Of a stretch of 64,000 nucleotides of DNA, positions 2,781 through 36,623 are shown one piece after another; position 1 is the stretch's first letter, and each line of letters begins with the position of its first letter. Under the pieces are notes generated by a model, which saw nothing but the letters and a program-made list of their open reading frames with translations, had not been told where the DNA came from and ran no database searches. Source of the DNA: an uncultured Paracoccaceae bacterium (GTDB taxonomy: Bacteria; Pseudomonadota; Alphaproteobacteria; Rhodobacterales; Rhodobacteraceae); the NCBI GenBank assembly GCA_937983405.1, contig CALJZN010000004.1, forward strand, positions 35,659-99,658, read 5' to 3'. The translations under genes and the position numbers were made by a program.

Positions 2781-3787
2781 CAGCGCATCTCGGCCCGGGC
2801 CCTGCGGATGTTCCACAGCATGATCGGCGTCACCAGCGCCATGATCACCAGCGCCACGGCCGAGGCGCGACCCGAGTCGTTGCCGCGGAACATCCAGTCG
2901 AACATGAGGTTGGCCAGCACCTGCGTGCCCCACTGTCCGTTGGTCATCGCCAGCACGATGTCGAAGACCTTGAGCACGAGGATCGTGATCGTCGTCCAGA
3001 CCACCGCGATCGTGCCCCAGATCTGCGGCACCTTGATCTTCCAGAACAGCTGCCAGGGGGTCGCGCCGTCCAGAATGGCGGCCTCGATGGTCTCTTCCGG
3101 GATGCCGCGCAGCGCGGCCGACAGGATCACCATGGCAAATCCGGTCTGGATCCAGATGAGGATCGCCATGAGACAGACGTTGTTCCAGACCTCGAGCGTG
3201 ATCCAGGCGCGCGGCGTGCCGCCCGCACCGACCACGACCGCGTTCAGCAGCCCGATCTGCGCCTGATCGGCCGGGCGGTAGTCGTAGATGAACCTCCAGA
3301 TCACCGCCGCGCCGATGAACGAGATCGCCATCGGCATGAAGATCAGCGACTTGGCGATGTTGCCCCAGCGCAGCCGGTCGGTCAGCGCCGCCGCGGCCAG
3401 CCCCAGCAGCGTCGAGGCCGCGGGCACCACCAGAAGCCACAAGAGGTTGTTGCGCATCGATTCGCGGAACTTGCCGTCGCCCGCCAGCCAGACCCAGTTG
3501 GCCCCGCCCACCCAGCGCCGCCCCGCGGCATCGTGCAGCGACAGCCAGACCGAGTTGACCACCGGATAGACGAGATAGACGCCGAGCCCGAGCAGCGCCG
3601 GCGCCAGGAACAGCCAGGGCCGGATCGCGCCGGCGGTGCGGATATTGGCGCCGGCCCGGGCGCCGCGTGCCGGAAAGGCCGCATCGAGCGCCCGGTTCGA
3701 CGCCCAGAAATAGGCGACGCAGGCAAAGACCCCGACGATCATCGCGCCCAGGGCTTCGACAAGCTGGCCGACGATCCCGTCCGCCAT
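2780..3787 (-). CDS. aglF: alpha-glucoside ABC transporter permease (AglF)
   Basis: A 335-residue MalF-type permease. An N-terminal hydrophobic segment (about residues 10-28) precedes the binding-protein-dependent transport domain, with the EAA-loop signature EAAILDGATPWQLFWKIKVP near residues 230-255. It pairs with AglG to form the membrane channel that receives sugar from AglE. The start ATG at 3787 (MADGIVGQ) is the first ATG that keeps the usual AglF length; the ORF track's longer N-terminus is composition-driven. A gap of about 100 bp separates it from aglE; the other junctions in the operon overlap. Confidence 0.9.
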   Translation of the reverse strand: MADGIVGQLVEALGAMIVGVFACVAYFWASNRALDAAFPARGARAGANIRTAGAIRPWLFLAPALLGLGVYLVYPVVNSVWLSLHDAAGRRWVGGANWVWLAGDGKFRESMRNNLLWLLVVPAASTLLGLAAAALTDRLRWGNIAKSLIFMPMAISFIGAAVIWRFIYDYRPADQAQIGLLNAVVVGAGGTPRAWITLEVWNNVCLMAILIWIQTGFAMVILSAALRGIPEETIEAAILDGATPWQLFWKIKVPQIWGTIAVVWTTITILVLKVFDIVLAMTNGQWGTQVLANLMFDWMFRGNDSGRASAVALVIMALVTPIMLWNIRRARAEMR

Positions 3788-24353: not shown

Positions 24354-25181
24354 TCAGTCCCGCAGCAGCTCGTTGATCGAGGTCTTGGCGCGGGTCGCGG
24401 CGTCCACCTTCTTCACGATCACCGCGCAGTAGAGATGCACGCCCCCCGACGACGGCAGCGAGCCCGCCACCACCACCGACCCCGCCGGCACCTCGCCATA
24501 CATCACCGCGCCGGTCGCGCGGTCGACGATCTTCGTGGAGCGGCCGATGAACACACCCATCCCCAGCACCGCGCCCTCGCGCACGATCACGCCCTCGACC
24601 ACCTCGGAGCGCGCGCCGATGAAGCAGTCGTCCTCGATGATCGTGGGGTTGGCCTGCATCGGCTCCAGCACGCCGCCGATGCCGACGCCGCCCGACAGAT
24701 GCACCCGCTTGCCGATCTGGGCGCAGGAGCCGACGGTGGCCCAGGTGTCCACCATCGTGCCCTCGTCCACATAGGCCCCGAGGTTGACGAAGCTGGGCAT
24801 CAGCACCACGCCCGGCGCGATGTAGGCCGACCGGCGCACGACGCAGGTCGGCACCGCGCGGAAGCCCGCCGCGCGCCACTCGGCCTCGCCCCAGCCGCGG
24901 AACTTCGAGTCGACCTTGTCCCACCAGCCGCCGCCCTGCGGGCCGCCGGAATGGGGTTCCATGTCCTTCAGGCGGAAGCTCAGCAGCACCGCCTTCTTGG
25001 CCCACTGGTTGACGTGCCAGCGCCCGTCGGCCTGCCGCTCGGCCACCCGCAGGCGGCCCTTGTCCAGCGCCTCGAGCGTAGCCTCGATTGCCTCGCGCGC
25101 GGGGCCGGTGGTGGCGGGGGACAGGCTGTCGCGCGCCTCCCAGGCGGCCTCGACGGCGGCGGCAAGATCGGCATAGGGCAT
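24354..25181 (-). CDS. dapD: 2,3,4,5-tetrahydropyridine-2,6-dicarboxylate N-succinyltransferase
   Basis: A 275-residue left-handed beta-helix (hexapeptide) acyltransferase of lysine/diaminopimelate synthesis. An N-terminal helical domain ([18 protein letters not shown]) is followed by repeats including [33 protein letters not shown] and [16 protein letters not shown]. The ATG at 25181 ([11 protein letters not shown]) is the natural start. Neighbouring genes are unrelated, and other lysine genes are not in the window. Confidence 0.95.
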
Positions 25182-25273: not shown

Positions 25274-26446
25274 TCAGGCGGCCAGCCCGGCCCCGCCGTC
25301 GGCCTCGGCCAGCACCGCAGCGTCCACGGCCGGAGGGCCCGCGCGGAGGAGCCGCCGCGCCAGCCGCCGGCCGGTGCGCCCGTCGGCCAGCGGCAGCGCC
25401 GGCCCCGCCGCCAGCACCCGCTCGCACAGCGGCGCCGGCGCCCCGGGAACCGCGGCCCCGAGAACCGCGGCGCCGAGCGCATCGGACGCCACCGGCCCGG
25501 GCCAGAGCGTTTCGGCCCAGGCGCCGTCGGCGCGCACGATCGTGTGCCGCTCGGAGAGCAGGTGGAAATACTCGACCTCGCGCGCCTCCTGCACCGGGGC
25601 GATCCCCGGCAGCCCGGCCAGATGCTTGACCGCGACCAGAACCGCCGGCGCGCCGGTCTCGCGCGCCACCTCGGGCCCTGCCACCATCAGCCGGTGCTGC
25701 GCCGAAAGCACCAGCGGCCGGGCGGGCATGTCGGGGCCGAGCGCGCCGGCCTCGACCGCCCAAGGCCGCCAGGCGTCGCTGCTGGCCAGCCGGCCGCGCC
25801 CGCCCCAGACCCGCCCGATCCAGGCCACGGGCTGCGGCCCGTGCTGCAGCGTCTCGACGAGGTCGCCGGGGGCCAGCGCCTCGACGGGCACCTCGCCGCG
25901 CGGCGTGGCGATGCGCGTGCCCGCGGCAAAGCAGGGCGGCGAGCCGGGCTGACCCTGGCCGGCGATGTAGCCGGGATGGATCAGGCTTCCCGGGTAGGTG
26001 GAGTAATCCACGATCCCCATCATCTCGAGCGAGACGAAGTCGGCCGGATCGATGAAATCGACCGTTGTGTTCGGGAAGGCGAGGTAGAGCGTCGTCGAGC
26101 CGTCGGTGATCTCGAGGAAATGGATCCCGCCCCAGAACGGCCCGCCCGTCGTCGTCCCCGTGCCGACCGAGTGCCAGATGTTGGTGACGGTGTAGGTCGT
26201 CCCGCCCATCCAGATCAGCGAGCCCGGGTCGATGGGATTGGCCTCGCCGTCGTAATAGTAAATGATCGGTAAAGGCGGGTAGGGATTGCCGTTCGGGTCG
26301 AAGTTGTCGGTGAACGTCTTGATCGGGCCCCCGATGCCGGTGATGAGCGGATCGGTGGGGGTGAAGGTGTACATGCTGAACGTCGGCCCGCCGCCGAGCG
26401 GCACGCCGCTGAGGACGAACGCATTTCCAAGATCGAACCACGGCAT
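25274..26446 (-). CDS. Hint-domain (hedgehog/intein-like) protein
   Basis: A 390-residue protein. The first 170 residues are rich in Gly, Thr and aromatic residues, with no signal peptide or recognised domain, and may be beta-rich. From Cys172 a Hint_2-type self-processing domain begins: [24 protein letters not shown], later [14 protein letters not shown] and [22 protein letters not shown]. The tail after the Hint fold has no obvious C-terminal extein, so any processing would be N-S acyl shift and N-cleavage. It starts 3 bp after the nucleotidyltransferase gene stop, so they are co-transcribed. The N-terminal half is visibly less GC-rich (some 60-bp lines about 57%) than its surroundings. Biological role unknown. 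Confidence 0.75.
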
Positions 26447-26449
26447 GGG

Positions 26450-27475
26450 TCAGACGGCTCCTGCAGGGGCGGCCCGGCGGGTCCGGGCGCGGTGAAGGTC
26501 GATCGCCTCAACCACCTCGAGCCCGAGGAGGTTGCCGGTGGCGGCGAAATGGGCCCGTGCCGCCGCGGGCGCGGCATCCTCGGCCAGCCGCGCCAGCGGC
26601 GCAATCCGCGCCGCGGCGGCCCGCGCCAGTTCGGGCAGCGCCCCGGGCACGCCGCGATGCACCGCGGCAAGGCGGTCAAGCAGCGCCCGCGTCGCCGGCG
26701 CCAGCGCCGCGGGGGCGGCGAAGGGATCCTCGCCGTCGAGGACCAGAAGCGTCCGCAGCGCCCAGCGCAGCCGCGCCAGGGCCAGCATCCGGCCCCCCTC
26801 CAGCGCCGGCCGGCCGAGGCAGAAGCGGACGAGATCGGCCAGATGCGCAGGCTCGGGCAGGGCCGGCGCGCGGCCGAACTGCGCCCGGGCACGCTCCAGC
26901 ACCGCCGCAGGGCCGGCAAGATGGCGGTGGCAGCCCAGCACCGAGGCCGCAAAGGGCGCCCCCGCCCGCGCCTGGTCAAGGAACGCCCGGCGCGGCGCGA
27001 CCGTGAGCGAGACGCGGCCGAGCGCGACGTCGCGCCGCGCGCCCTCGCGCGGGATCGCCAGCAGGTCGAGGTCCGAACGGGCATGGTGCGTTCCGCGCAC
27101 ACGGCTGCCGATCGCCAGAAGCGTGGTGTCCGGCGCGCAGGCCAGCAGATAGGCCAGCACCGGATGCCCCGCCGCGGTGGTCGCGCGGTCGGTGGCGCGG
27201 GCCAGCACGGCGGCCTCCAGCGGCGCAAGCGCGGCGCCCTCCACCGTCAGCGCGCCGTTGGCCGCCACCAGCACCCTGGCGTCCCGCCCGCACGGCGGCA
27301 GGGCCGCGGAGCCGCCCGGGGGCACCACGACGCGCAGCACCGCGATGCCGTCGCCCGCCGCGACCGGGGCCGCCCGGGTGACCGGGTGCGCGGGGCAGTC
27401 CGTGGCCGGGGCTGCACCCGGACCCGTCGCCCCTGCGCCCGCGTCCGGCGCCTGCCGCATCGCCGCCCCCGCCAT
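26450..27475 (-). CDS. nucleotidyltransferase-fold protein upstream of the Hint gene
   Basis: A 341-residue protein. A roughly 100-residue N-terminal part resembles a short cupin-like beta domain ([21 protein letters not shown]). A nucleotidyltransferase core follows with [20 protein letters not shown], the GSxxxG...DxD metal/NTP motif of minimal nucleotidyltransferases. The C-terminal 200 residues are helical (HEPN-like in character, not proven). The start at ATG 27475 has GGAAGG nearby; an in-frame GTG 30 nt upstream is the alternative. It forms a two-gene unit with the Hint gene. No antitoxin- or toxin-type partner of known family is visible. Confidence 0.65.
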
Positions 27476-27993
27476 GGCCTTCCTGCTCCTCGAACGCCGA
27501 CCCACCCCGGTCGGCCGCAGGGCGCAAGGCGCGCCACCGACCCGGACACGGCCGCGCTAATTCAGAAACGTGGAAAAACTGTGGCGGCAGCGCCGCCGAT
27601 GCGCGGGGCCGCGCGCCCAGAACCCGCCGCGCGGGGCGCGCGCGTCCGGCTGCCGCGGCGGGCGGGCCGGTTCGACCTGCCCGGGGCGCGTTCTGCCGCC
27701 CGGGTCCATGTCCGGCCCCGCGGCGGCGCGGCCGTGCGGCCGGCCGTCCCCGGGTGCTGTCCCGGCGCGGGGCGTCGCACCCGCTCCGCCGCAACGGCTC
27801 GATGCTCTGCGGCGCCCCGGAAGTCGCCGACGGGAAGGGATGCAGGTCGTCCCGGCCGTCGGCCGGCGCGCGACCCCCCGGGCAGACTCGCCGAGGGGGT
27901 GGTGCACGCCCTCCTCGACGACCCGGTCCGGCGCCCGGGCGATGCCGCGGGGATCAACCGCGCCCGGGCATCCCGCCGAGGACCGGGATTGGC
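27476..27993. other. non-coding gap upstream of the phosphonate operon
   Basis: The whole spacer to phnD is 658 bp, the longest gene-free stretch in the window. ORFs here on both strands are Arg/Pro/Ala-rich composition artefacts. A small AT-rich island (CTAATTCAGAAACGTGGAAAAACTG, about 27558-27582) could hold the promoter of the nucleotidyltransferase gene. The rest shows no recognisable RNA gene or repeat. Confidence 0.6.
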
Positions 27994-28133: not shown

Positions 28134-29066
28134 ATGACCTTCCAGAACCTGCTGGGCACGGCCTCCGCCGTCGCCGTGCTTGCCGTCACCGTCACCGTCA
28201 CCCCCGCCGCCGCCGACTGGCGTCAGGGCTTCGGCAGCTTCAACATCGGCATCCTTGGCGGCGAGAACGAGGCCGACCGCCTCCGCCGCTTCGACTGCAT
28301 GAAGACCCTTGTGAGCGAGGTGCTCGGCGTGCCGGTCGAGCTGTTCCCGGCGGCCGACTATGCCGGGGTGATGCAGGGCCTGCTCGCCGGGCAGCTGCAC
28401 ATGGCGGGCCTCGGGCCGGCGGCCTATGCCGGCATCTACCTGCAGGATCCCGAGGCGGTCGAGCCGGTGCTGACCCGCGCCCAGCTTGACGGCACGCTCG
28501 GCTACTATGCCGTGATGTATGTCCGCGCCGACAGCGACATCCAGAGCTTCGAGGACATGCGCGGCCGGACGCTCGCCTATGCCGATCCGAACTCGGCCTC
28601 GGGCTATCTGTTCCCGCGCGGCCAGCTGCGGCTGCAGGGGATCATCGACGACGAGTATTTCGGCCGCACCGGTTTTGCCGGCGGGCACGAGCAGGCGGTG
28701 ATCGCGGTGCTGAACGGCCAGTATGACGCGGGCGTCACCTGGACCTCGCTGCAGGGCGACTACGCACAGGGCTATTCGCGCGGCAACCTGCGCCGGATGG
28801 TGGACAACGGCCTGCTCAACATGAACGACATCCGCATCATCTGGACGTCGGACATCATCCCCAACGGCCCGACCGTGTTCCGCAAGGATCTGCCGGAGGA
28901 GGCGCGCGCGCTCATGCTCGACTTCCTGCTGAGCATGCCGGCCAAGCACCCCGAATGCTACAAGCTGACGGCCGGGGGCGAGGACGGCGGCTATGTGCAG
29001 ATCGACCATGCCTTCTACGAGACCACGGTGGCGCTGCGCCGCCAGGAGATCGCCGCGTCGCGCTGA
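28134..29066 (+). CDS. phnD: phosphonate ABC transporter substrate-binding protein
   Basis: A 310-residue periplasmic binding protein with a signal peptide (MTFQNLLGTASAVAVLAVTV, cleavage near AAADW). The PhnD features FNIGILGGENEADRL, LHMAGLGPAAYAGIY and AYADPNSASGYLFPRGQL mark the phosphonate-binding type. The ATG at 28134 follows ACAGGGGACGC. First gene of phnDCE1E2 under the Pho-box array; it delivers organophosphonates to the permease. Confidence 0.93.
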   Translation: MTFQNLLGTASAVAVLAVTVTVTPAAADWRQGFGSFNIGILGGENEADRLRRFDCMKTLVSEVLGVPVELFPAADYAGVMQGLLAGQLHMAGLGPAAYAGIYLQDPEAVEPVLTRAQLDGTLGYYAVMYVRADSDIQSFEDMRGRTLAYADPNSASGYLFPRGQLRLQGIIDDEYFGRTGFAGGHEQAVIAVLNGQYDAGVTWTSLQGDYAQGYSRGNLRRMVDNGLLNMNDIRIIWTSDIIPNGPTVFRKDLPEEARALMLDFLLSMPAKHPECYKLTAGGEDGGYVQIDHAFYETTVALRRQEIAASR

Positions 29067-29147
29067 GCGGCGTGCAACATCCGGGCCCCCGCCATCCTGC
29101 GGGGGCCCATGCCTCCGCCGGCCCGGGCCGGCACGACGAGGGCGGAC

Positions 29148-29978
29148 ATGCTCGAATTTCGAAATCTCTCGAAGGACTTCAACGGCAAGACCGCGGTGGT
29201 CGGGGTCACGCTTGACATTCCGCCCGGCCAGATGGTGGGGATCATCGGGCGGTCCGGCGCCGGCAAGTCCACGCTGCTGCGCATGATCAACCGGCTGAAC
29301 GATGCAAGTTCGGGGCAGCTTCTGTTCGACGGTCGCGACATCACCGCCCTGCGCGGGCGCGCGCTGCGCCAGTGGCGCAACGAATGCGCCATGGTATTCC
29401 AGCAGTTCAACCTGGTCGGCCGGCTGAACGTGATCACCAACGTGATGTCGGGTCGGCTGTTCCACCACGGGCTCGTGACGTCGATGCTCGGTCTCTTCTC
29501 GGCCCGCGAGCGCGCCTTCGCGATCCGCGCGCTCGACCGTCTGGGCATGGCCCATACCGCGCTGCAGCAGACCGACACGCTGTCGGGCGGCCAGCAGCAG
29601 CGGGTGGCCATCGCGCGCGCCCTGGTGCAGGAGCCGAAGATCCTTCTGGCCGACGAGCCGATCGCCAGCCTCGATCCGCTGAACGCCAAGATCGTGATGG
29701 ACGCCCTGCGCGCCATCAACCGCGAGGACGGGCTGACGGTGATCTGCAACCTGCACACGCTCGACACCGCGCGGACCTACTGCGACCGCATCATCGGCAT
29801 GCAGGAGGGCCGCGTCGTCTTCGACGGCCCCGCCGCGAAGCTGACCGACGCGAAGGCGCGCGAGATCTACGGCGCCGAGGCGGCCGAGGCCTTCAACGAG
29901 GCGCTGACCTCGACGAGCCTTGCCGGCAGCAGCCGGCCGATGGACCCCGCGCTGGCCCAGGCGCAGGCGGCGCTCTAG
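29148..29978 (+). CDS. phnC: phosphonate ABC transporter ATP-binding protein
   Basis: A 276-residue ABC ATPase: Walker [13 protein letters not shown]-loop [10 protein letters not shown], signature [15 protein letters not shown] and Walker [13 protein letters not shown]. The insertion around [20 protein letters not shown] is characteristic of PhnC. The ATG at 29148 (MLEFRNLS) starts at the first strand. It lies between phnD and phnE1 with short gaps. Confidence 0.94.
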
Positions 29979-29981
29979 CCC

Positions 29982-30911
29982 ATGGCCCGCACCGCCCACA
30001 TGCCGCCCGTGCAGCCCGGGCAGGATGCCGTCGCCCTGTTCGAGGCCCACCGCGCCCGGCTGATCCGCGAGAAGCTTGTCGTCAACCTCACGCTGCTGGC
30101 GCTGTTCCTGGCGCTTCTGTTCTGGTCGATCAGCGTCTCGCGCTTCTGGCCCGACCGGCTGGCGGCAGGCTTCCCGCGCATCTTCGAATATTTCGGCACC
30201 GTCCTGCCCGACCTGCGCTGGGAGGTGCTGTTCGAGGGCCGCAATGCGGCGGGCCGCTTCCCGCCCGGCTCGATCGGCTACTGGTACAACGACTTCTGGA
30301 AATACCTGCGGCTGATCTGGGAGACGATCCTGATGGCCGTCACCGCGACGCTCGTCGCGACCGCGCTGGCGGTGATCCTCAGCCTCGTTGCGGCGCGCAA
30401 CGTCACGCCCAACCTCTGGCTGGCGGCGGCGGCGCGGCGGTTCCTCGAGTTCTGCCGCGGCGTGCCCGAGATCCTGTTCGCGCTGGTGTTCGTCTTCGCG
30501 GTGGGCATCGGCCCGCTGGCGGGGGTGCTGGCCATCACCATCCACGCCACCGGCGCGCTGGGCAAGCTCTTCTCCGAGGTGGTCGAGAACGCCTCGATGC
30601 GCCCTGTGGACGGCATCGCCGCGGTCGGCGGCAGCTGGGCGCAGCGGATGCGCTACGGCATCCTGCCGCAGGTCGCGCCCAACTTCACATCCTATGCGCT
30701 GTGGCGGTTCGAGATCAACGTCCGCGCCTCGGCGGTGGTGGGCTTCGTCGGCGCCGGCGGGATCGGTCAGGAGATCAACCATGTCATCAGCTTCTATTCC
30801 GATGATCGGGTGCTGGCGGTGCTGCTCATCGTCGTGCTGACAGTGACGCTGATCGACCTCGTCTCGGAACGCGCGCGCCACGCGCTGATCGGCAGGGAGA
30901 GCCTGAGATGA
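29982..30911 (+). CDS. phnE: phosphonate ABC transporter permease PhnE (1)
   Basis: A 309-residue inner-membrane permease with six hydrophobic helices. The EAA-type region is ENASMRPVDGIAAVGGSWAQRMRYGILPQ. The first hydrophobic segment is about residues 35-52. It starts 3 bp after phnC and its stop overlaps phnE2 (ATGA). It probably heterodimerises with PhnE2, as phosphonate operons commonly encode two permeases. Confidence 0.92.
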   Translation: MARTAHMPPVQPGQDAVALFEAHRARLIREKLVVNLTLLALFLALLFWSISVSRFWPDRLAAGFPRIFEYFGTVLPDLRWEVLFEGRNAAGRFPPGSIGYWYNDFWKYLRLIWETILMAVTATLVATALAVILSLVAARNVTPNLWLAAAARRFLEFCRGVPEILFALVFVFAVGIGPLAGVLAITIHATGALGKLFSEVVENASMRPVDGIAAVGGSWAQRMRYGILPQVAPNFTSYALWRFEINVRASAVVGFVGAGGIGQEINHVISFYSDDRVLAVLLIVVLTVTLIDLVSERARHALIGRESLR

Positions 30912-31765
30912 CCGCGCTGACCTTCGCCGCAATCACCGAGGCCGATGTCGCCGAGGCCCGGCGCACCCATCCGGCGGCCTTCGGCAATCCGCTGGTGCGG
31001 GCGCTCAAGATCGCGTCCTGGGCAGTGGTGATCGGCTATGTCGCCTATTCCTTCCATCTGTTCGAGGCCTGGAAGCTGCTCGAGAGCTCCGAGCGCGCGA
31101 TCCGCCTTGTCACCCGCATGGTCGCGTGGGAGGGGATGGCCGGCTGGTCCTATCGACAGATCTACACCGGTATCGCCCAGACCATCGCCATGGCCTTCCT
31201 CGGCACGCTGCTGGGGACGATCTTTGCGCTCGGACTCGGCTTTCTTGCCGCGCGCAACACGATGCCGGTGGGCGTCTTGCGCCATGCGGTGCGCCGGCTG
31301 CTCGACATCTTCCGCGGCGTGGACAGCGTGGTCTGGGCGCTCGTCTTCGTGCGGGCGGTGGGCCTTGGCCCGCTGGCCGGGGTGCTGGCGATTTGGGTGT
31401 CGGACATGGGCAACCTCGCCAAGCTCTACTCCGAGGCCATCGAGAACATCGACCGCAAGCAGGTCGAGGGCGTGCGCGCCACCGGCGCCGATGCCCCGCG
31501 GATCATCCGCTACGGCTATCTCCCGCAGATCCTGCCGGTGTTCATCTCGCTCTCGCTCTATTCCTTCGAATCCTCGGTGCGCTCGGCCACGATCCTCGGG
31601 CTGGTGGGCGCCGGCGGGATCGGGATGATCATCATCGAGCGGTTCCGCGCCGGGCTGTTCGACCAGGTGGCCTTCGTGGTCCTCAACGTGCTGATCGTGA
31701 TCGCCATCATCGACTGGGGTTCGGGGCTGATCCGCAAGCGCTTCATCGGCGAGCGCGGGCACTGA
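30908..31765 (+). CDS. phnE: phosphonate ABC transporter permease PhnE (2)
   Basis: A 285-residue second permease, homologous to PhnE1 (for instance EAIENIDRKQVEGVRATGADAPRII and ILGLVGAGGIGMIIIERF). Six hydrophobic helices. It overlaps phnE1 by 4 bp. The high conservation of the GAGGIG motif in both copies suggests both are functional partners in the channel. Confidence 0.92.
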   Translation: MTALTFAAITEADVAEARRTHPAAFGNPLVRALKIASWAVVIGYVAYSFHLFEAWKLLESSERAIRLVTRMVAWEGMAGWSYRQIYTGIAQTIAMAFLGTLLGTIFALGLGFLAARNTMPVGVLRHAVRRLLDIFRGVDSVVWALVFVRAVGLGPLAGVLAIWVSDMGNLAKLYSEAIENIDRKQVEGVRATGADAPRIIRYGYLPQILPVFISLSLYSFESSVRSATILGLVGAGGIGMIIIERFRAGLFDQVAFVVLNVLIVIAIIDWGSGLIRKRFIGERGH

Positions 31766-31830
31766 GCCCGGGCGCGGGCGGTCGGCCGCCCCCGCCGGCC
31801 CTGCCCGGCGGCGGCGCGCAAGGGGGGGGC

Positions 31831-32448
31831 ATGGGCAAGGGACTGAACGGCGACGGTCCGCTCATCCATCCGGGCTGCGACATCCGCAACGCGCAGTTCG
31901 GCCCCTGGACCGAAGTCGGGCCGGGCAGCGTGATCCTCAATTCCAGCTTCGGCGCCTACAGCTACTGCACGCGACTGTGCGACATCGCCAACGCCACGGT
32001 CGGCAAGTTCGTCAACATCGCCGCGATGGTCCGCATCGGGCCCACCGACCACCCCATGGCGCGGGCCAGCCAGCACCATTTCCTCTACCGCTCGTCCGAC
32101 TACTGGCCGGACGAGGCCGACGATGCGGCGTTCTTCGCCGCCCGCGCCGCCCGCCGCACCACGATCGGGCACGACGTCTGGATCGGGCACGGCGCCATCG
32201 TCCGGCCCGAGGTGACGGTGGGCGACGGCGCGGTGATCGGCGCGGGGGCGGTGGTGACGAAGGACGTGGCGCCCTACAGCATCGTCGCCGGGGTGCCGGC
32301 GGCGCCGATCCGCGCGCGCTTTCCGCGCGCGGTGGCCGAGGGGTTGCAGCGCCTCGCCTGGTGGGACTGGGACCACGACCGGCTGCGCGCGGCGCTGCCC
32401 GATTTCCGAAGCCTCGACGCGGCCGACTTCCTGGCGAAATACGGCTGA
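31831..32448 (+). CDS. phosphonate-locus hexapeptide-repeat transferase
   Basis: A 205-residue left-handed beta-helix acyltransferase of the type associated with phosphonate metabolism clusters (TIGR03308-like). Repeats include CDIANATVGKFVNIA and TIGHDVWIGHGAIVRPEVTVGDGAVIGAGAVVTKDV. A central insert (HHFLYRSSDYWPDEADDAAF) is typical of this subgroup. A strong purine run (AAGGGGGGG) precedes the ATG. It may N-acetylate aminophosphonates or an intermediate; substrate not known. It ends 2 bp from the convergent PhnM-like gene. Confidence 0.82.
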   Translation: MGKGLNGDGPLIHPGCDIRNAQFGPWTEVGPGSVILNSSFGAYSYCTRLCDIANATVGKFVNIAAMVRIGPTDHPMARASQHHFLYRSSDYWPDEADDAAFFAARAARRTTIGHDVWIGHGAIVRPEVTVGDGAVIGAGAVVTKDVAPYSIVAGVPAAPIRARFPRAVAEGLQRLAWWDWDHDRLRAALPDFRSLDAADFLAKYG

Positions 32449-32450
32449 GC

Positions 32451-33629
32451 CTACTGCGCCGCCAGCGCCCGCTCCGCACCCGCGCCGAGAAAGCGCGCCC
32501 CCGCCGCCCCCGTCAACCACGCCAGCCGGCCGGCGGCGATGGTCGCCTCGATCCGGCGGGTCGCGGGGTTCATCACCACGAGGTCGGCGCGGCGCCCCGG
32601 GGTAAGGGCGCCGCGGTCGGCAAGCCCGAAGATGCGCGCGGGGGCGGTCGAGATCATCTCCCACGCCGCCGGGAAGGTCGCGACGCGCTGGTCGGCCAGC
32701 ACCCAGGCGGCCTGGGCGAGCGCGGGCACGTAGTAGTCCGACACCAGCGCGTCGCAGAGCCCGTCCTCGATCAGCGCCATGGCGGCGATGTTGCCCGCCT
32801 GCGAGCCGCCGCGGACCACGTTGGGCGCGCCCATGAGCACCGGCTCGCCGGCCGCGCGGGCGGCGCGGGCGGCCGCCACGGTGGTGGGAAACTCGCAGAT
32901 CGGCGCGCCGAGGGCGCGGAAGCGCGCGCGCGTCTCCGCCGTGGCATCGTCGTGCGAGCCCATCGTCACCCCCGCCTGCGCCAGCCGCTCGGCAAGCGCG
33001 CGCAGCGCCGCGGGCACGCGGGGCTCCTGCGCCTGCGCCCCGCGGACGATGGCCAGCAGACCCTCGGGCGTGTGGCCGTTGTGGCCGGCCCACAGCGCGA
33101 AGCGGTCGGGCCGGCGTGCGGCCAGGTCCACCGCCTCGGGCAGGTGGTTGTTGAACACCAGATAGTCCACGCCGAAGCGCGCCATCGCCGCCACCAGCCG
33201 GTCGTGGTCCTCGAGCATGTGGGTCTCGAAACGCACCTGCACCCGGATGTCGGCGGTCAGCCGATGCGCCATCTCGGCCACGGCCTGCATCAGCTCCTCG
33301 GCGCGGTCGGGGCTGCGGGTGCCCCCCTCCCACGACCAGCTTTGCGCGAACCAGGCGGTGGTCACCCCGGCGGCGCCCAGTTCGGCGTCGGCGCTGACCA
33401 GCGCGCGGCGGGTGTCGAAGGGCGCGGTCGGGCGCGGGCGCAGGTGATGCTCGAACCCGTCGCCGTGCAGGTCGACGATGCCGGGCAGCAGCCAGTAGCC
33501 GGACAGGTCCACCTCGGGCGCGGCATGGTCGGCGATGCGGCCCTGCGACAGGGTCAGCGCGGTGTCGTGCAGGGCACCGTCCAGCAGCACAAGGGCGCCG
33601 GTCAGGCGAAGGTCGGGCAGCAGGGTCAT
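32451..33629 (-). CDS. second PhnM-like amidohydrolase
   Basis: A 392-residue amidohydrolase related to alpha-D-ribose 1-methylphosphonate 5-triphosphate diphosphatase. It has the metal-site motif GIVDLHGDGFEHH and the family stretches GVTMGSHDDATAE, CEFPTTVAAAR, LMGAPNVVRGGSQAGN and LVSDYYVPALAQAA. It is clearly paralogous to phnM at 41.2 kb but shorter in the middle region and divergent at the N-terminus. It lies downstream of phnF on the minus strand (73-bp gap), so it may be under PhnF control. Either a redundant PhnM or an enzyme for a different phosphonate intermediate. Confidence 0.82.
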   Translation of the reverse strand: MTLLPDLRLTGALVLLDGALHDTALTLSQGRIADHAAPEVDLSGYWLLPGIVDLHGDGFEHHLRPRPTAPFDTRRALVSADAELGAAGVTTAWFAQSWSWEGGTRSPDRAEELMQAVAEMAHRLTADIRVQVRFETHMLEDHDRLVAAMARFGVDYLVFNNHLPEAVDLAARRPDRFALWAGHNGHTPEGLLAIVRGAQAQEPRVPAALRALAERLAQAGVTMGSHDDATAETRARFRALGAPICEFPTTVAAARAARAAGEPVLMGAPNVVRGGSQAGNIAAMALIEDGLCDALVSDYYVPALAQAAWVLADQRVATFPAAWEMISTAPARIFGLADRGALTPGRRADLVVMNPATRRIEATIAAGRLAWLTGAAGARFLGAGAERALAAQ

Positions 33630-33702
33630 GGGGAGGGCCTCCGGGATCGCTTCGTGCGATAGCAGACCGGCGGTGACGATGCGATGACAGAACGACGCCG
33701 CA

Positions 33703-34413
33703 TCACGGATTTTCGACGATCAGCTGCACCCGCGCGCCGGCAAACCAGGTGCGGCCGTATTCCACGGCCCGGCCCTCGGGGTCGACGTTGATCGCGACCG
33801 TCCGCAGCAGCGGGGCGCCCACGGGCAGATGCAGATGCCGCGCGCGCATCGCGTCCGCCGCCTCGGCCGAGACGCGGGTCGAGCGGCGGGTGTAGTCGGC
33901 CACCCCCGCCTCGGCCAGCGCGGCCGTGACCGACAGGTGGCGGCGCAGCGCCTCCGGCAGGGCCGGAAGGCGCCGGGCATCGAAGGCCGAGCGGAACAGG
34001 CTGATCGGCACGCCGTCGGCCAGGCTTACGCCTTCCCACAGATGCACCGGGGCGCCGGGGGGCAGGCCCAGCGCCTCGGCCTCGCGCGGCTCGGCCGGCA
34101 GGGTTTCCAGCCGCAGGATGCGCTTTTCCGGGGTCTGCCCTGCCGACAGCAGGTTGTCGCGAAAGCGCGTGCGGCGGGTCAGCGGATAGTCCGTCACCCG
34201 CCCGGTGACGAACACCCCCGCCCCGCGCCGGGCATGGACCAGCCCCGCCTCGGCCAGCGCCGCCAGGGCCCGGCGGACGGTGTGGCGGTTGACGCCGAAG
34301 CGCTGCGCCAGCTGCGCCTCGGTCGGCAGCCGGTCGCCCGGCTGCCAGCGCCCGGCGGCGAGGTCGGCCGCCAGCGCGTCGCGCAGGTCGGACCACAGGG
34401 CGGGAGGGGACAT
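33703..34413 (-). CDS. phnF: GntR-family regulator of phosphonate utilisation (PhnF)
   Basis: A 236-residue GntR/HutC regulator. Its winged helix is LPTEAQLAQRFGVNRHTVRRALAALAEAGLV; the C-terminal UTRA effector domain includes LPPGAPVHLWEGVSLADG and RTVAINVDPEGRAVEYGRTWF. It is divergent from phnGHIJK-corA-LN with 85 bp between, which contains candidate operator half-sites. It probably represses the C-P lyase genes until an effector is present. Confidence 0.9.
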   Translation of the reverse strand: MSPPALWSDLRDALAADLAAGRWQPGDRLPTEAQLAQRFGVNRHTVRRALAALAEAGLVHARRGAGVFVTGRVTDYPLTRRTRFRDNLLSAGQTPEKRILRLETLPAEPREAEALGLPPGAPVHLWEGVSLADGVPISLFRSAFDARRLPALPEALRRHLSVTAALAEAGVADYTRRSTRVSAEAADAMRARHLHLPVGAPLLRTVAINVDPEGRAVEYGRTWFAGARVQLIVENP

Positions 34414-34464
34414 GTCGCAGAAGCTTCACAGGATCGCGGTTGCCTCGGGTGGCTCTAGCCGATA

Positions 34465-34483
34465 TTTGTCTAGTTGTCCACAA
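34465..34483. promoter_or_regulatory. candidate PhnF operator
   Basis: TTTGTCTAGTTGTCCACAA in the phnF-phnG spacer has TTGT/ACAA ends in inverted orientation and two TTGTC half-sites 8 bp apart. It lies in the only AT-rich patch of the spacer, 16 bp upstream of phnG. Assignment to PhnF is by position. Confidence 0.4.
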
Positions 34484-34498
34484 TACCGAGTCGCCGCG

Positions 34499-34972
34499 AT
34501 GCTCGATGCCCAGCCCGATGCCCGACCCGACGCTGCCCCGCAGGATCGCCAGGTCTGGATGGGCCTTCTCGCCCGCGCGCGGCCGGACGAGCTGGCGCGG
34601 CTGTGGGCCGGCCTGGGCGCGGAGCCGGCCTTCGACTGGCTGCGCCGGCCCGAGGCGGGGACGGTGATGCTGCGCGGCCGGGCCGGGGCGACGGGGGCGC
34701 CCTTCAACCTTGGCGAGATGACGGTGACGCGCGCCAGCCTGCGGCTGGCCTGCGGCACGGTGGGCCATGCCTGGGTGCAGGGCCGCGGGGCCGAGCACGC
34801 ACGGATCGCCGCGCTTGCGGATGCGCTGCTGCAGACCGACCGTGCCGGAGAGCTGCGCGCGGCGGTGCTCGGGCCGCTGGCGCAGGCCGAGGCGGCGCGG
34901 CGGGCCGCGCGCGCGGCGCGGGCGGCGGCGACGAAGGTGGAGTTCTTCACGATGGTGCGGGGCGAGGGATGA
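34499..34972 (+). CDS. phnG: C-P lyase subunit PhnG
   Basis: A 157-residue core-complex subunit. Recognisable stretches are DRQVWMGLLARARPDEL, GTVMLRGRAGATGAPFNLGEMTVTRAS and GHAWVQGRGAEHARIAALADALLQ. With PhnH, PhnI and PhnJ it forms the C-P lyase core and, with PhnI, the ribosylating step that attaches phosphonate to ATP. The ATG at 34499 opens the operon; phnH overlaps by 4 bp. Confidence 0.93.
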   Translation: MLDAQPDARPDAAPQDRQVWMGLLARARPDELARLWAGLGAEPAFDWLRRPEAGTVMLRGRAGATGAPFNLGEMTVTRASLRLACGTVGHAWVQGRGAEHARIAALADALLQTDRAGELRAAVLGPLAQAEAARRAARAARAAATKVEFFTMVRGEG

Positions 34973-35541
34973 GTGCGGCCGAACCCCTGACCGGCGGCTT
35001 CGCCGCGCCTGCGCCCGATGCGGCGCGCGCCTTCCGCGCGATCCTCGAGGCCATGGCGCAGCCGGGCCGGATCGTGCGGCTGGCGGGGGCGGCGGCGCCG
35101 GCCCCGGCCGGGCCGGCGCTGGCGGCGGCGCTGCTCACACTGGCCGACGGCACGACGCCCGTGCATCTGGCCGGCGACCACGACACCCCCGCCCTGCGCG
35201 CCTGGCTGCGCTTTCACACCGGCGCGCCGCTGATGCCGCGGGCCGGGGCCGCCTTTGCCGTCGGCAGCTGGGCGGCGCTCCTGCCGCTGTCGGACTACGC
35301 CGCCGGGACCGCGGAATATCCCGACCGGTCGGCCACGCTGATCGTCGCGCTCGACCGGCTCGAGCCCGCCGGCGCCCGCCTGACCGGCCCCGGGATCGCG
35401 GCCGAGGCGCGGCTGTCGCTGCCCGAGACCGCGGCCTTCCGCGCCAATGCCGCGCGCTTTCCGCTGGGCGTCGATTTCCTGTTCGTCTGCGGCGACCGGC
35501 TTGCCGCCCTGCCCCGCAGCATTCGCGTGGAGGCCGCCTGA
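34969..35541 (+). CDS. phnH: C-P lyase subunit PhnH
   Basis: A 190-residue PhnH: FRAILEAMAQPGRIVRL near the N-terminus, LADGTTPVHLAG, WLRFHTGAPL and GTAEYPDRSATLIVAL follow the family. It is a structural subunit with a PLP-transferase-like fold but without the cofactor lysine. It overlaps both phnG (ATGA) and phnI (TGATG). Confidence 0.93.
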   Translation: MSAAEPLTGGFAAPAPDAARAFRAILEAMAQPGRIVRLAGAAAPAPAGPALAAALLTLADGTTPVHLAGDHDTPALRAWLRFHTGAPLMPRAGAAFAVGSWAALLPLSDYAAGTAEYPDRSATLIVALDRLEPAGARLTGPGIAAEARLSLPETAAFRANAARFPLGVDFLFVCGDRLAALPRSIRVEAA

Positions 35542-36623
35542 TGTATGTCGCCGTCAAGGGGGGCGAGCGGGCGATCGCCGCCGCCCACGCCTGGCTTGCC
35601 GAGGAGCGGCGCGGCGACCCCGCCGTGCCCGAGCTTTCGCCCGACCAGATCCGCGAGCAGCTGCGCCTTGCCGTCAATCGCGTGATGGCCGAGGGCTCGC
35701 TCTACGACCCCGACCTGGCGGCGCTGGCGCTGAAGCAGGCGCGCGGCGATGCGGTCGAGGCGGTGTTCCTGATCCGCGCCTTCCGCACCACCCTGCCGCG
35801 GCTGGCGGCGTCGCGTCCGCTCGACACCGCCGCCATGGCCTGCGACCGGCGCATCAGCGCCACTTTCAAGGATGCGCCGGGCGGGCAGGTGCTGGGCCCG
35901 ACCTTCGACTATACCCACCGCCTGATCGACTTCGCGCTCGCCGCCGGGCTGCCCGTGCCGCCGGCCCCCGTGGCCCCCCCGCAGGCGGGGCCGATGCCGC
36001 ATATCACGGGCTTTCTCGACCGCGAGGGGCTGATCCGGCCCGAGCCGCCATCGGACGCCGAGCCGCCCGACCTGACGCGCGCGCCGCTGGCGCTGCCGGC
36101 CGACCGGGCGCTGCGGCTGCAGGCGCTGGCGCGCGCCGACGAGGGGTTCCTGCTCGCGCTCGCCTATTCCACCCAGCGCGGCTATGGCTCGACCCACGCC
36201 TTCGTGGGCGAGCTGCGCATCGGCCGGGTGCCGGTGGCGGTGGAGATCCCCGAGCTGGGCCTGGCCGTCGAGATCGGCGAGGTCGAGCTGACCGAATGCG
36301 AGACGGTGAACCAGTTCGCCGGCTCGAAGTCCGAGCCGCCGCAGTTCACCCGCGGCTACGGCCTCGCGCTGGGGATGAACGAACGCCGCACGATCGCGAT
36401 GGCGCTGGTGGACCGGGCGCTCTGCGCGCGCGAGCTGGGCGAGGACGTCGGCCGCGGCCCGGCGCAGGACGAGGAGTTCGTCCTCAGCCATTGCGACAAC
36501 ATCCAGGCGTCGGGCTTTCTCGAACACATCAAGCTGCCGCACTACGTCGATTTCCAGTCGGAGAGCGAGGGCCTGCGCGCCCGCCGCGCCGCCGCGCTGG
36601 CCGGTCGGGAGGCCGCGGAATGA
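35541..36623 (+). CDS. phnI: C-P lyase subunit PhnI
   Basis: A 360-residue PhnI starting with the invariant MYVAVKGGERAI. Other signatures are AYSTQRGYGSTHAFVGELRIG, ECETVNQFAGSKSEPPQFTRGYGL and FVLSHCDNIQASGFLEHIKLPHYVDFQSE. PhnI catalyses displacement of adenine from ATP by the phosphonate (with PhnG/H/L). It overlaps phnH by one base and phnJ by 4 bp. Confidence 0.95.
   Translation: MYVAVKGGERAIAAAHAWLAEERRGDPAVPELSPDQIREQLRLAVNRVMAEGSLYDPDLAALALKQARGDAVEAVFLIRAFRTTLPRLAASRPLDTAAMACDRRISATFKDAPGGQVLGPTFDYTHRLIDFALAAGLPVPPAPVAPPQAGPMPHITGFLDREGLIRPEPPSDAEPPDLTRAPLALPADRALRLQALARADEGFLLALAYSTQRGYGSTHAFVGELRIGRVPVAVEIPELGLAVEIGEVELTECETVNQFAGSKSEPPQFTRGYGLALGMNERRTIAMALVDRALCARELGEDVGRGPAQDEEFVLSHCDNIQASGFLEHIKLPHYVDFQSESEGLRARRAAALAGREAAE

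Follow-up and report, generated by a model that had tools for sequence, protein, structure and literature searches.

In the Hailong anti-phage system, poly-dA adducts of the nucleotidyltransferase HalB block the channel of its partner HalA (PMC13275509). The locus described here lies within a 64,000-nucleotide stretch of DNA (the window) from a 76%-complete assembly of a Rhodobacteraceae bacterium, and pairs a divergent relative of HalB with a protein that carries a Hint domain. Hint_2 proteins are related to hedgehog/intein and bacterial intein-like domains. An earlier note on this DNA, made from the letters alone, had described the two genes as a nucleotidyltransferase–Hint pair; the most informative lead, the likeness of the enzyme to HalB, was missed in that first reading. 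A functional link between the enzyme and the Hint protein is plausible and unproven. Even if the two are unlinked, what is recorded here is a HalB relative that has diverged, carries an N-terminal extension and sits in no recognisable defence island.

Results

Two co-directional genes lie beside dapD

The pair consists of two minus-strand genes, the first encoding the enzyme (26450–27475) and the second the Hint protein (25274–26446), with 3 bp between the enzyme stop codon and the Hint ATG. A gene finder based on codon usage, with the window as its training set, gave both strong coding scores; the genes are real and correctly placed, and their strand and spacing are as the earlier note had given them. 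Along the minus strand the order is enzyme, Hint, dapD, the last of these (24354–25181, minus strand) being a housekeeping gene that lies next to the pair in each of the two genomes that carry it and is not part of the system. The other called neighbour is a transporter substrate-binding protein, and the region upstream of the pair (28134–36623), which holds phosphonate-uptake-like transporter genes and phnG, appears ordinary. The called neighbours include no recognisable HalA-like membrane protein, integrase, defence gene or mobility gene, and no flanking repeat or tRNA hinting at a mobile element was found around the pair; the repeats that were detected are two-copy matches of 70–90% in very GC-rich DNA. 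The claim that no secretion or toxin gene is near likewise stood among the called genes, some of which were scanned against protein families.

The enzyme is a distant relative of HalB

The enzyme gene (26450–27475, minus strand) encodes 341 amino acids from its ATG, or 351 from an alternative in-frame GTG at 27505. The NCBIfam HalB model (NF051895) matches residues 130–255 at E 2.4e-9, with a score of 37.1 bits against a curated cut-off of 190, and matches the orthologue from a second genome at E 3.5e-10, likewise far short of that cut-off; for the two orthologues, the next best model reaches about 15 bits. The MntA model gives 15.2 bits, under its 60-bit cut-off, and Pfam NTP_transf_2 a sub-threshold match (E 0.008). 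Profile–profile alignment with hhalign places the enzyme with two HalB relatives at E 2.2e-9, and the score of the core alignment was reached by none of 1000 shuffles for each of two different HalB relatives. Beyond residue 255 the score was reached by 11 of 1000 shuffles for one relative and 144 of 1000 for the other, and homology to HalB in this part is weak. Alignments of the enzyme with HalB relatives found in family genomes extend along the whole length of HalB. In PADLOC the enzyme had only weak matches (E 0.004) and the Hint protein had none, and a comparison of the pair with phage families gave a weak match to phrog_24076 (E 1e-4).

Inspection of the core shows the GSRVRG...SDLDLL arrangement of a nucleotidyltransferase, which bears out this part of the earlier description. 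The catalytic signature (27059–27109, minus strand) has its two-aspartate motif intact (SDLDLL, residues 144–149); the catalytic pair is Asp145 and Asp147 in the 351-residue numbering, and the same two aspartates are alanines in the solved HalB variant 9dbi. The enzyme and the HalB relatives share GSxxRG, SDxDLL, a GxxF step and a WxxRT helix, and an HFxxTxNxxGL motif near the C-terminus of the enzyme is present in solved HalB too. The glutamate of the HalB TELQF/LEVQF motif is replaced by serine in the window enzyme. We conclude from these comparisons that the enzyme is distantly related to HalB and bears an extra module at its front, and is not HalB itself.

The N-terminal extension, which HalB does not have (27130–27475, minus strand; limits approximate), is fast-evolving, with 34% amino-acid identity to the second genome and dN about equal to dS. 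A cupin-like fold had been proposed for this front end; the first 112 residues have no Pfam match even at E 10, cupin included, and the assignment is dropped for want of profile support. Single-sequence AlphaFold models were too poor to use for the enzyme (pLDDT 38, although a few strands appear in the front end) and unusable for the Hint protein (pLDDT 36). The long helical tail noted at the other end of the enzyme is predicted here as well, and aligns with the helical C-terminal half of HalB.

Two further HalB relatives were observed in family genomes. At L087 (4440–6163), a closer relative narrowly misses the 190-bit cut-off with 176.8 bits. The gene immediately before it encodes 347 amino acids, and its product, when read by eye, shows pentapeptide-like repeats and membrane segments at the C-terminal end and is a candidate HalA; judged by sequence, this is likely a Hailong pair in a Rhodobacteraceae bin. 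At L093 (4653–8999), a HalB relative lies among integrase-like, WYL-like regulator and second nucleotidyltransferase-like genes, as identified by eye, and the locus is possibly a defence island.

The Hint protein is an ordinary member of a widespread family

The second gene (25274–26446, minus strand) encodes a 390-residue protein with a Pfam Hint_2 (PF13403) match at E 6.7e-47 and 160 bits, above the gathering score of 28.4, in agreement with the domain named in the earlier note. The Hint autoprocessing domain spans residues 171–317 (25496–25936), and its N-terminal Cys172 and block-B His251 are each kept in 35 of 38 aligned relatives. Because these catalytic residues are intact, N-terminal acyl-shift chemistry at Cys172 is plausible. 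Reading of the sequence reveals no evident membrane segment. The C-terminal tail (25274–25495) has counterparts behind the Hint domain of some relatives, judged by eye (compare TDGRTGRKLSAR in L018).

The N-terminal module (residues 1–170; 25937–26446) was called unknown, and it indeed has no Pfam match; it is nevertheless weakly similar to the modules of other rhodobacteral Hint proteins in a 53-sequence set (best E 0.0015, 0.0056 and 0.14), and is therefore probably one more member of a pool of variable, beta-rich modules. Its GC content is low (63% versus 78%), which would fit a mobile module; GC3 is only about 1.3 s.d. below the mean of the window genes, so that the low GC is mostly a matter of amino-acid composition, and we rejected this idea.

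With E 0.001 as the limit, a relative of the Hint protein turned up in 131 of the 150 family genomes searched, and the window genome alone has ten Hint_2 matches in about nine genes. The domain is common to these proteins and the fronts differ, with calcium-binding-type repeats in some and assorted beta-rich modules in others; by itself, the window protein is an ordinary rhodobacteral Hint_2 protein. A Hint_2 match at L102 (G000:C58, about 2845–3269) runs across two frames, possibly from a frameshifted gene or an assembly error. The literature searched yielded no paper on the function of Rhodobacteraceae Hint_2 proteins and no report of toxicity for this widespread family.

The enzyme subfamily occurs in two genomes

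Among 397 family genomes from 396 genera, the enzyme subfamily was found in just two: the window genome and an incomplete bin (83%) from a different genus, referred to here as G125 (CALIZF010000066.1). It was found in none of 385 class genomes and in neither of two other same-genus genomes, one of which has no pair beside dapD; tblastn gave no match in plasmids or phages, and neither the enzyme nor the Hint protein had a confirmed match in viral contigs. A scan of named genomes returned only G125; its peptide patterns were too specific to pick up distant relatives. The pair was not seen beside dapD in the sampled family genomes with callable genes, where a LOG-family gene is a common dapD neighbour; G125 keeps a LOG-family gene upstream of the pair.

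The Hint gene appears to follow the enzyme subfamily in both of its two occurrences, and none of the roughly 35 further Hint loci inspected (28 from other genomes, viewed with up to 1.5 kb of flank, and eight from the window genome) has the enzyme nearby. Co-occurrence, which the earlier note had named as the check on its proposal, thus has one positive, G125, with the same order beside dapD, and about 35 Hint loci without the enzyme. That note had suggested a joint nucleotide- or protein-modification system: the adjacency is correct, and a joint system is not demonstrated, because Hint proteins of this family abound and hardly ever have the enzyme beside them.

The shared gene junction lies in a near-identical tract

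The G125 pair is broken across two contigs, and about 755 bp between them are missing. One contig ends after the enzyme stop, 3 bp and the Hint ATG, and another starts inside the C-terminal part of the Hint gene and continues into dapD; across the break, the gene order appears to match that of the window (enzyme, Hint, dapD). The genes upstream of the pair differ between the two genomes. The enzyme core is 73% identical with a dN/dS of about 0.2 (dN 0.16, dS 0.79) and is under purifying selection; front and core together have 53% amino-acid identity.

The two genomes show 97% DNA identity from about residue 207 to the end of the enzyme gene, and the second G125 contig matches the window at 100% over its first 125 bp. 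Outside this tract, DNA identity is 53% in the enzyme front, 76% in the core, 74% in the Hint tail and 84% in dapD. The tract (about 25560–26860 of the window, against L012/L015) coincides with contig breaks of the G125 bin, and could come from recombination between lineages or from mixing of reads between bins, an assembly artefact; both are possible. Since the gene junction lies inside a 97–100% identical tract, its conservation is not independent evidence, and the two occurrences are close to one observation.

Discussion

The reading that we tentatively prefer, at somewhat less than an even chance, is that the locus is a rare two-gene accessory unit in which a HalB-type enzyme holds a self-processing Hint_2 partner in check. 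Almost as likely is an adjacency by chance, in which a stand-alone Hint_2 protein of a common kind and a diverged HalB-like enzyme with a substrate of its own arrived together next to dapD. Such an arrival is consistent with how numerous and apparently stand-alone Hint_2 proteins are, within the window genome and across the family, and with the missing enzyme in the two same-genus genomes; a single transfer or recombination event could explain both occurrences. The shared strand and 3-bp spacing argue against chance, as does the retention of the pair in two genera while the enzyme front and core diverged. A further concern, which we regard as very improbable, is that metagenome assembly created the second occurrence, or its identity to the window, as an artefact, leaving the pair effectively a single observation: the near-identical tract coincides with contig ends and both bins are incomplete, but the shared stretch contains several scattered mismatches, and in their outer halves both genes are plainly distinct orthologues that have diverged.

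The pair might also be a diverged phage-defence or toxin–antitoxin module, with the Hint protein as an effector released by self-cleavage and the enzyme as its nucleotidylating guard. The two nearest curated models, HalB and MntA, are the guard and antitoxin of such modules, and the phage-family match and the setting of the HalB relative at L093 point the same way; we nonetheless consider this unlikely, as defence or mobility genes were not recognised around the window pair, the candidate effector comes from a widespread family with no reported toxicity found, and the PADLOC result is weak for the enzyme and empty for its partner.

For the accessory unit that we prefer, we infer every step past sequence homology: that the genes are co-transcribed, that the Hint protein is cleaved, that nucleotides are transferred and that the two proteins are linked. 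Both genes would probably lie on one transcript, the first of them coding for the diverged HalB-type enzyme and its extra N-terminal module. The Hint_2 protein would probably rearrange the bond before Cys172, releasing or transferring its own N-terminal module, and the enzyme would most likely nucleotidylate itself or the Hint protein and so gate it, by analogy with the HalB poly-dA adduct that keeps the HalA channel shut. The specific idea that the target gated by a HalB-type enzyme is here a self-cleaving Hint protein and not a membrane channel, so that the two form a new nucleotide-guarded effector pair, is a long shot. If the two proteins are linked, HalB-type nucleotide guarding would extend to a non-channel partner, and one of the many Rhodobacteraceae Hint_2 proteins would acquire a role.

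Among described systems, the enzyme resembles HalB (Hailong; NF051895; PDB 9dbh, 9dbi, 9dbj) in its SDxDLL core, W-x-x-R-T helix and HFxxTxNxxGL motif, and in size apart from the extension; it differs in being about 20% identical, N-terminally extended and changed at one acidic position. The pair is not Hailong, because the HalA membrane effector, the partner in that system, is not present. MntA of type VII toxin–antitoxin systems is likewise a nucleotidyltransferase beside a partner gene, but its 15-bit match covers the motif alone, and the window partner is not a HEPN toxin. The second protein shares with other Rhodobacteraceae Hint_2 (PF13403) proteins a variable beta-rich or RTX front, a Hint domain with cysteine and histidine, and a trailing tail, and differs from them in that only the window copy and its orthologue were found behind a nucleotidyltransferase gene.
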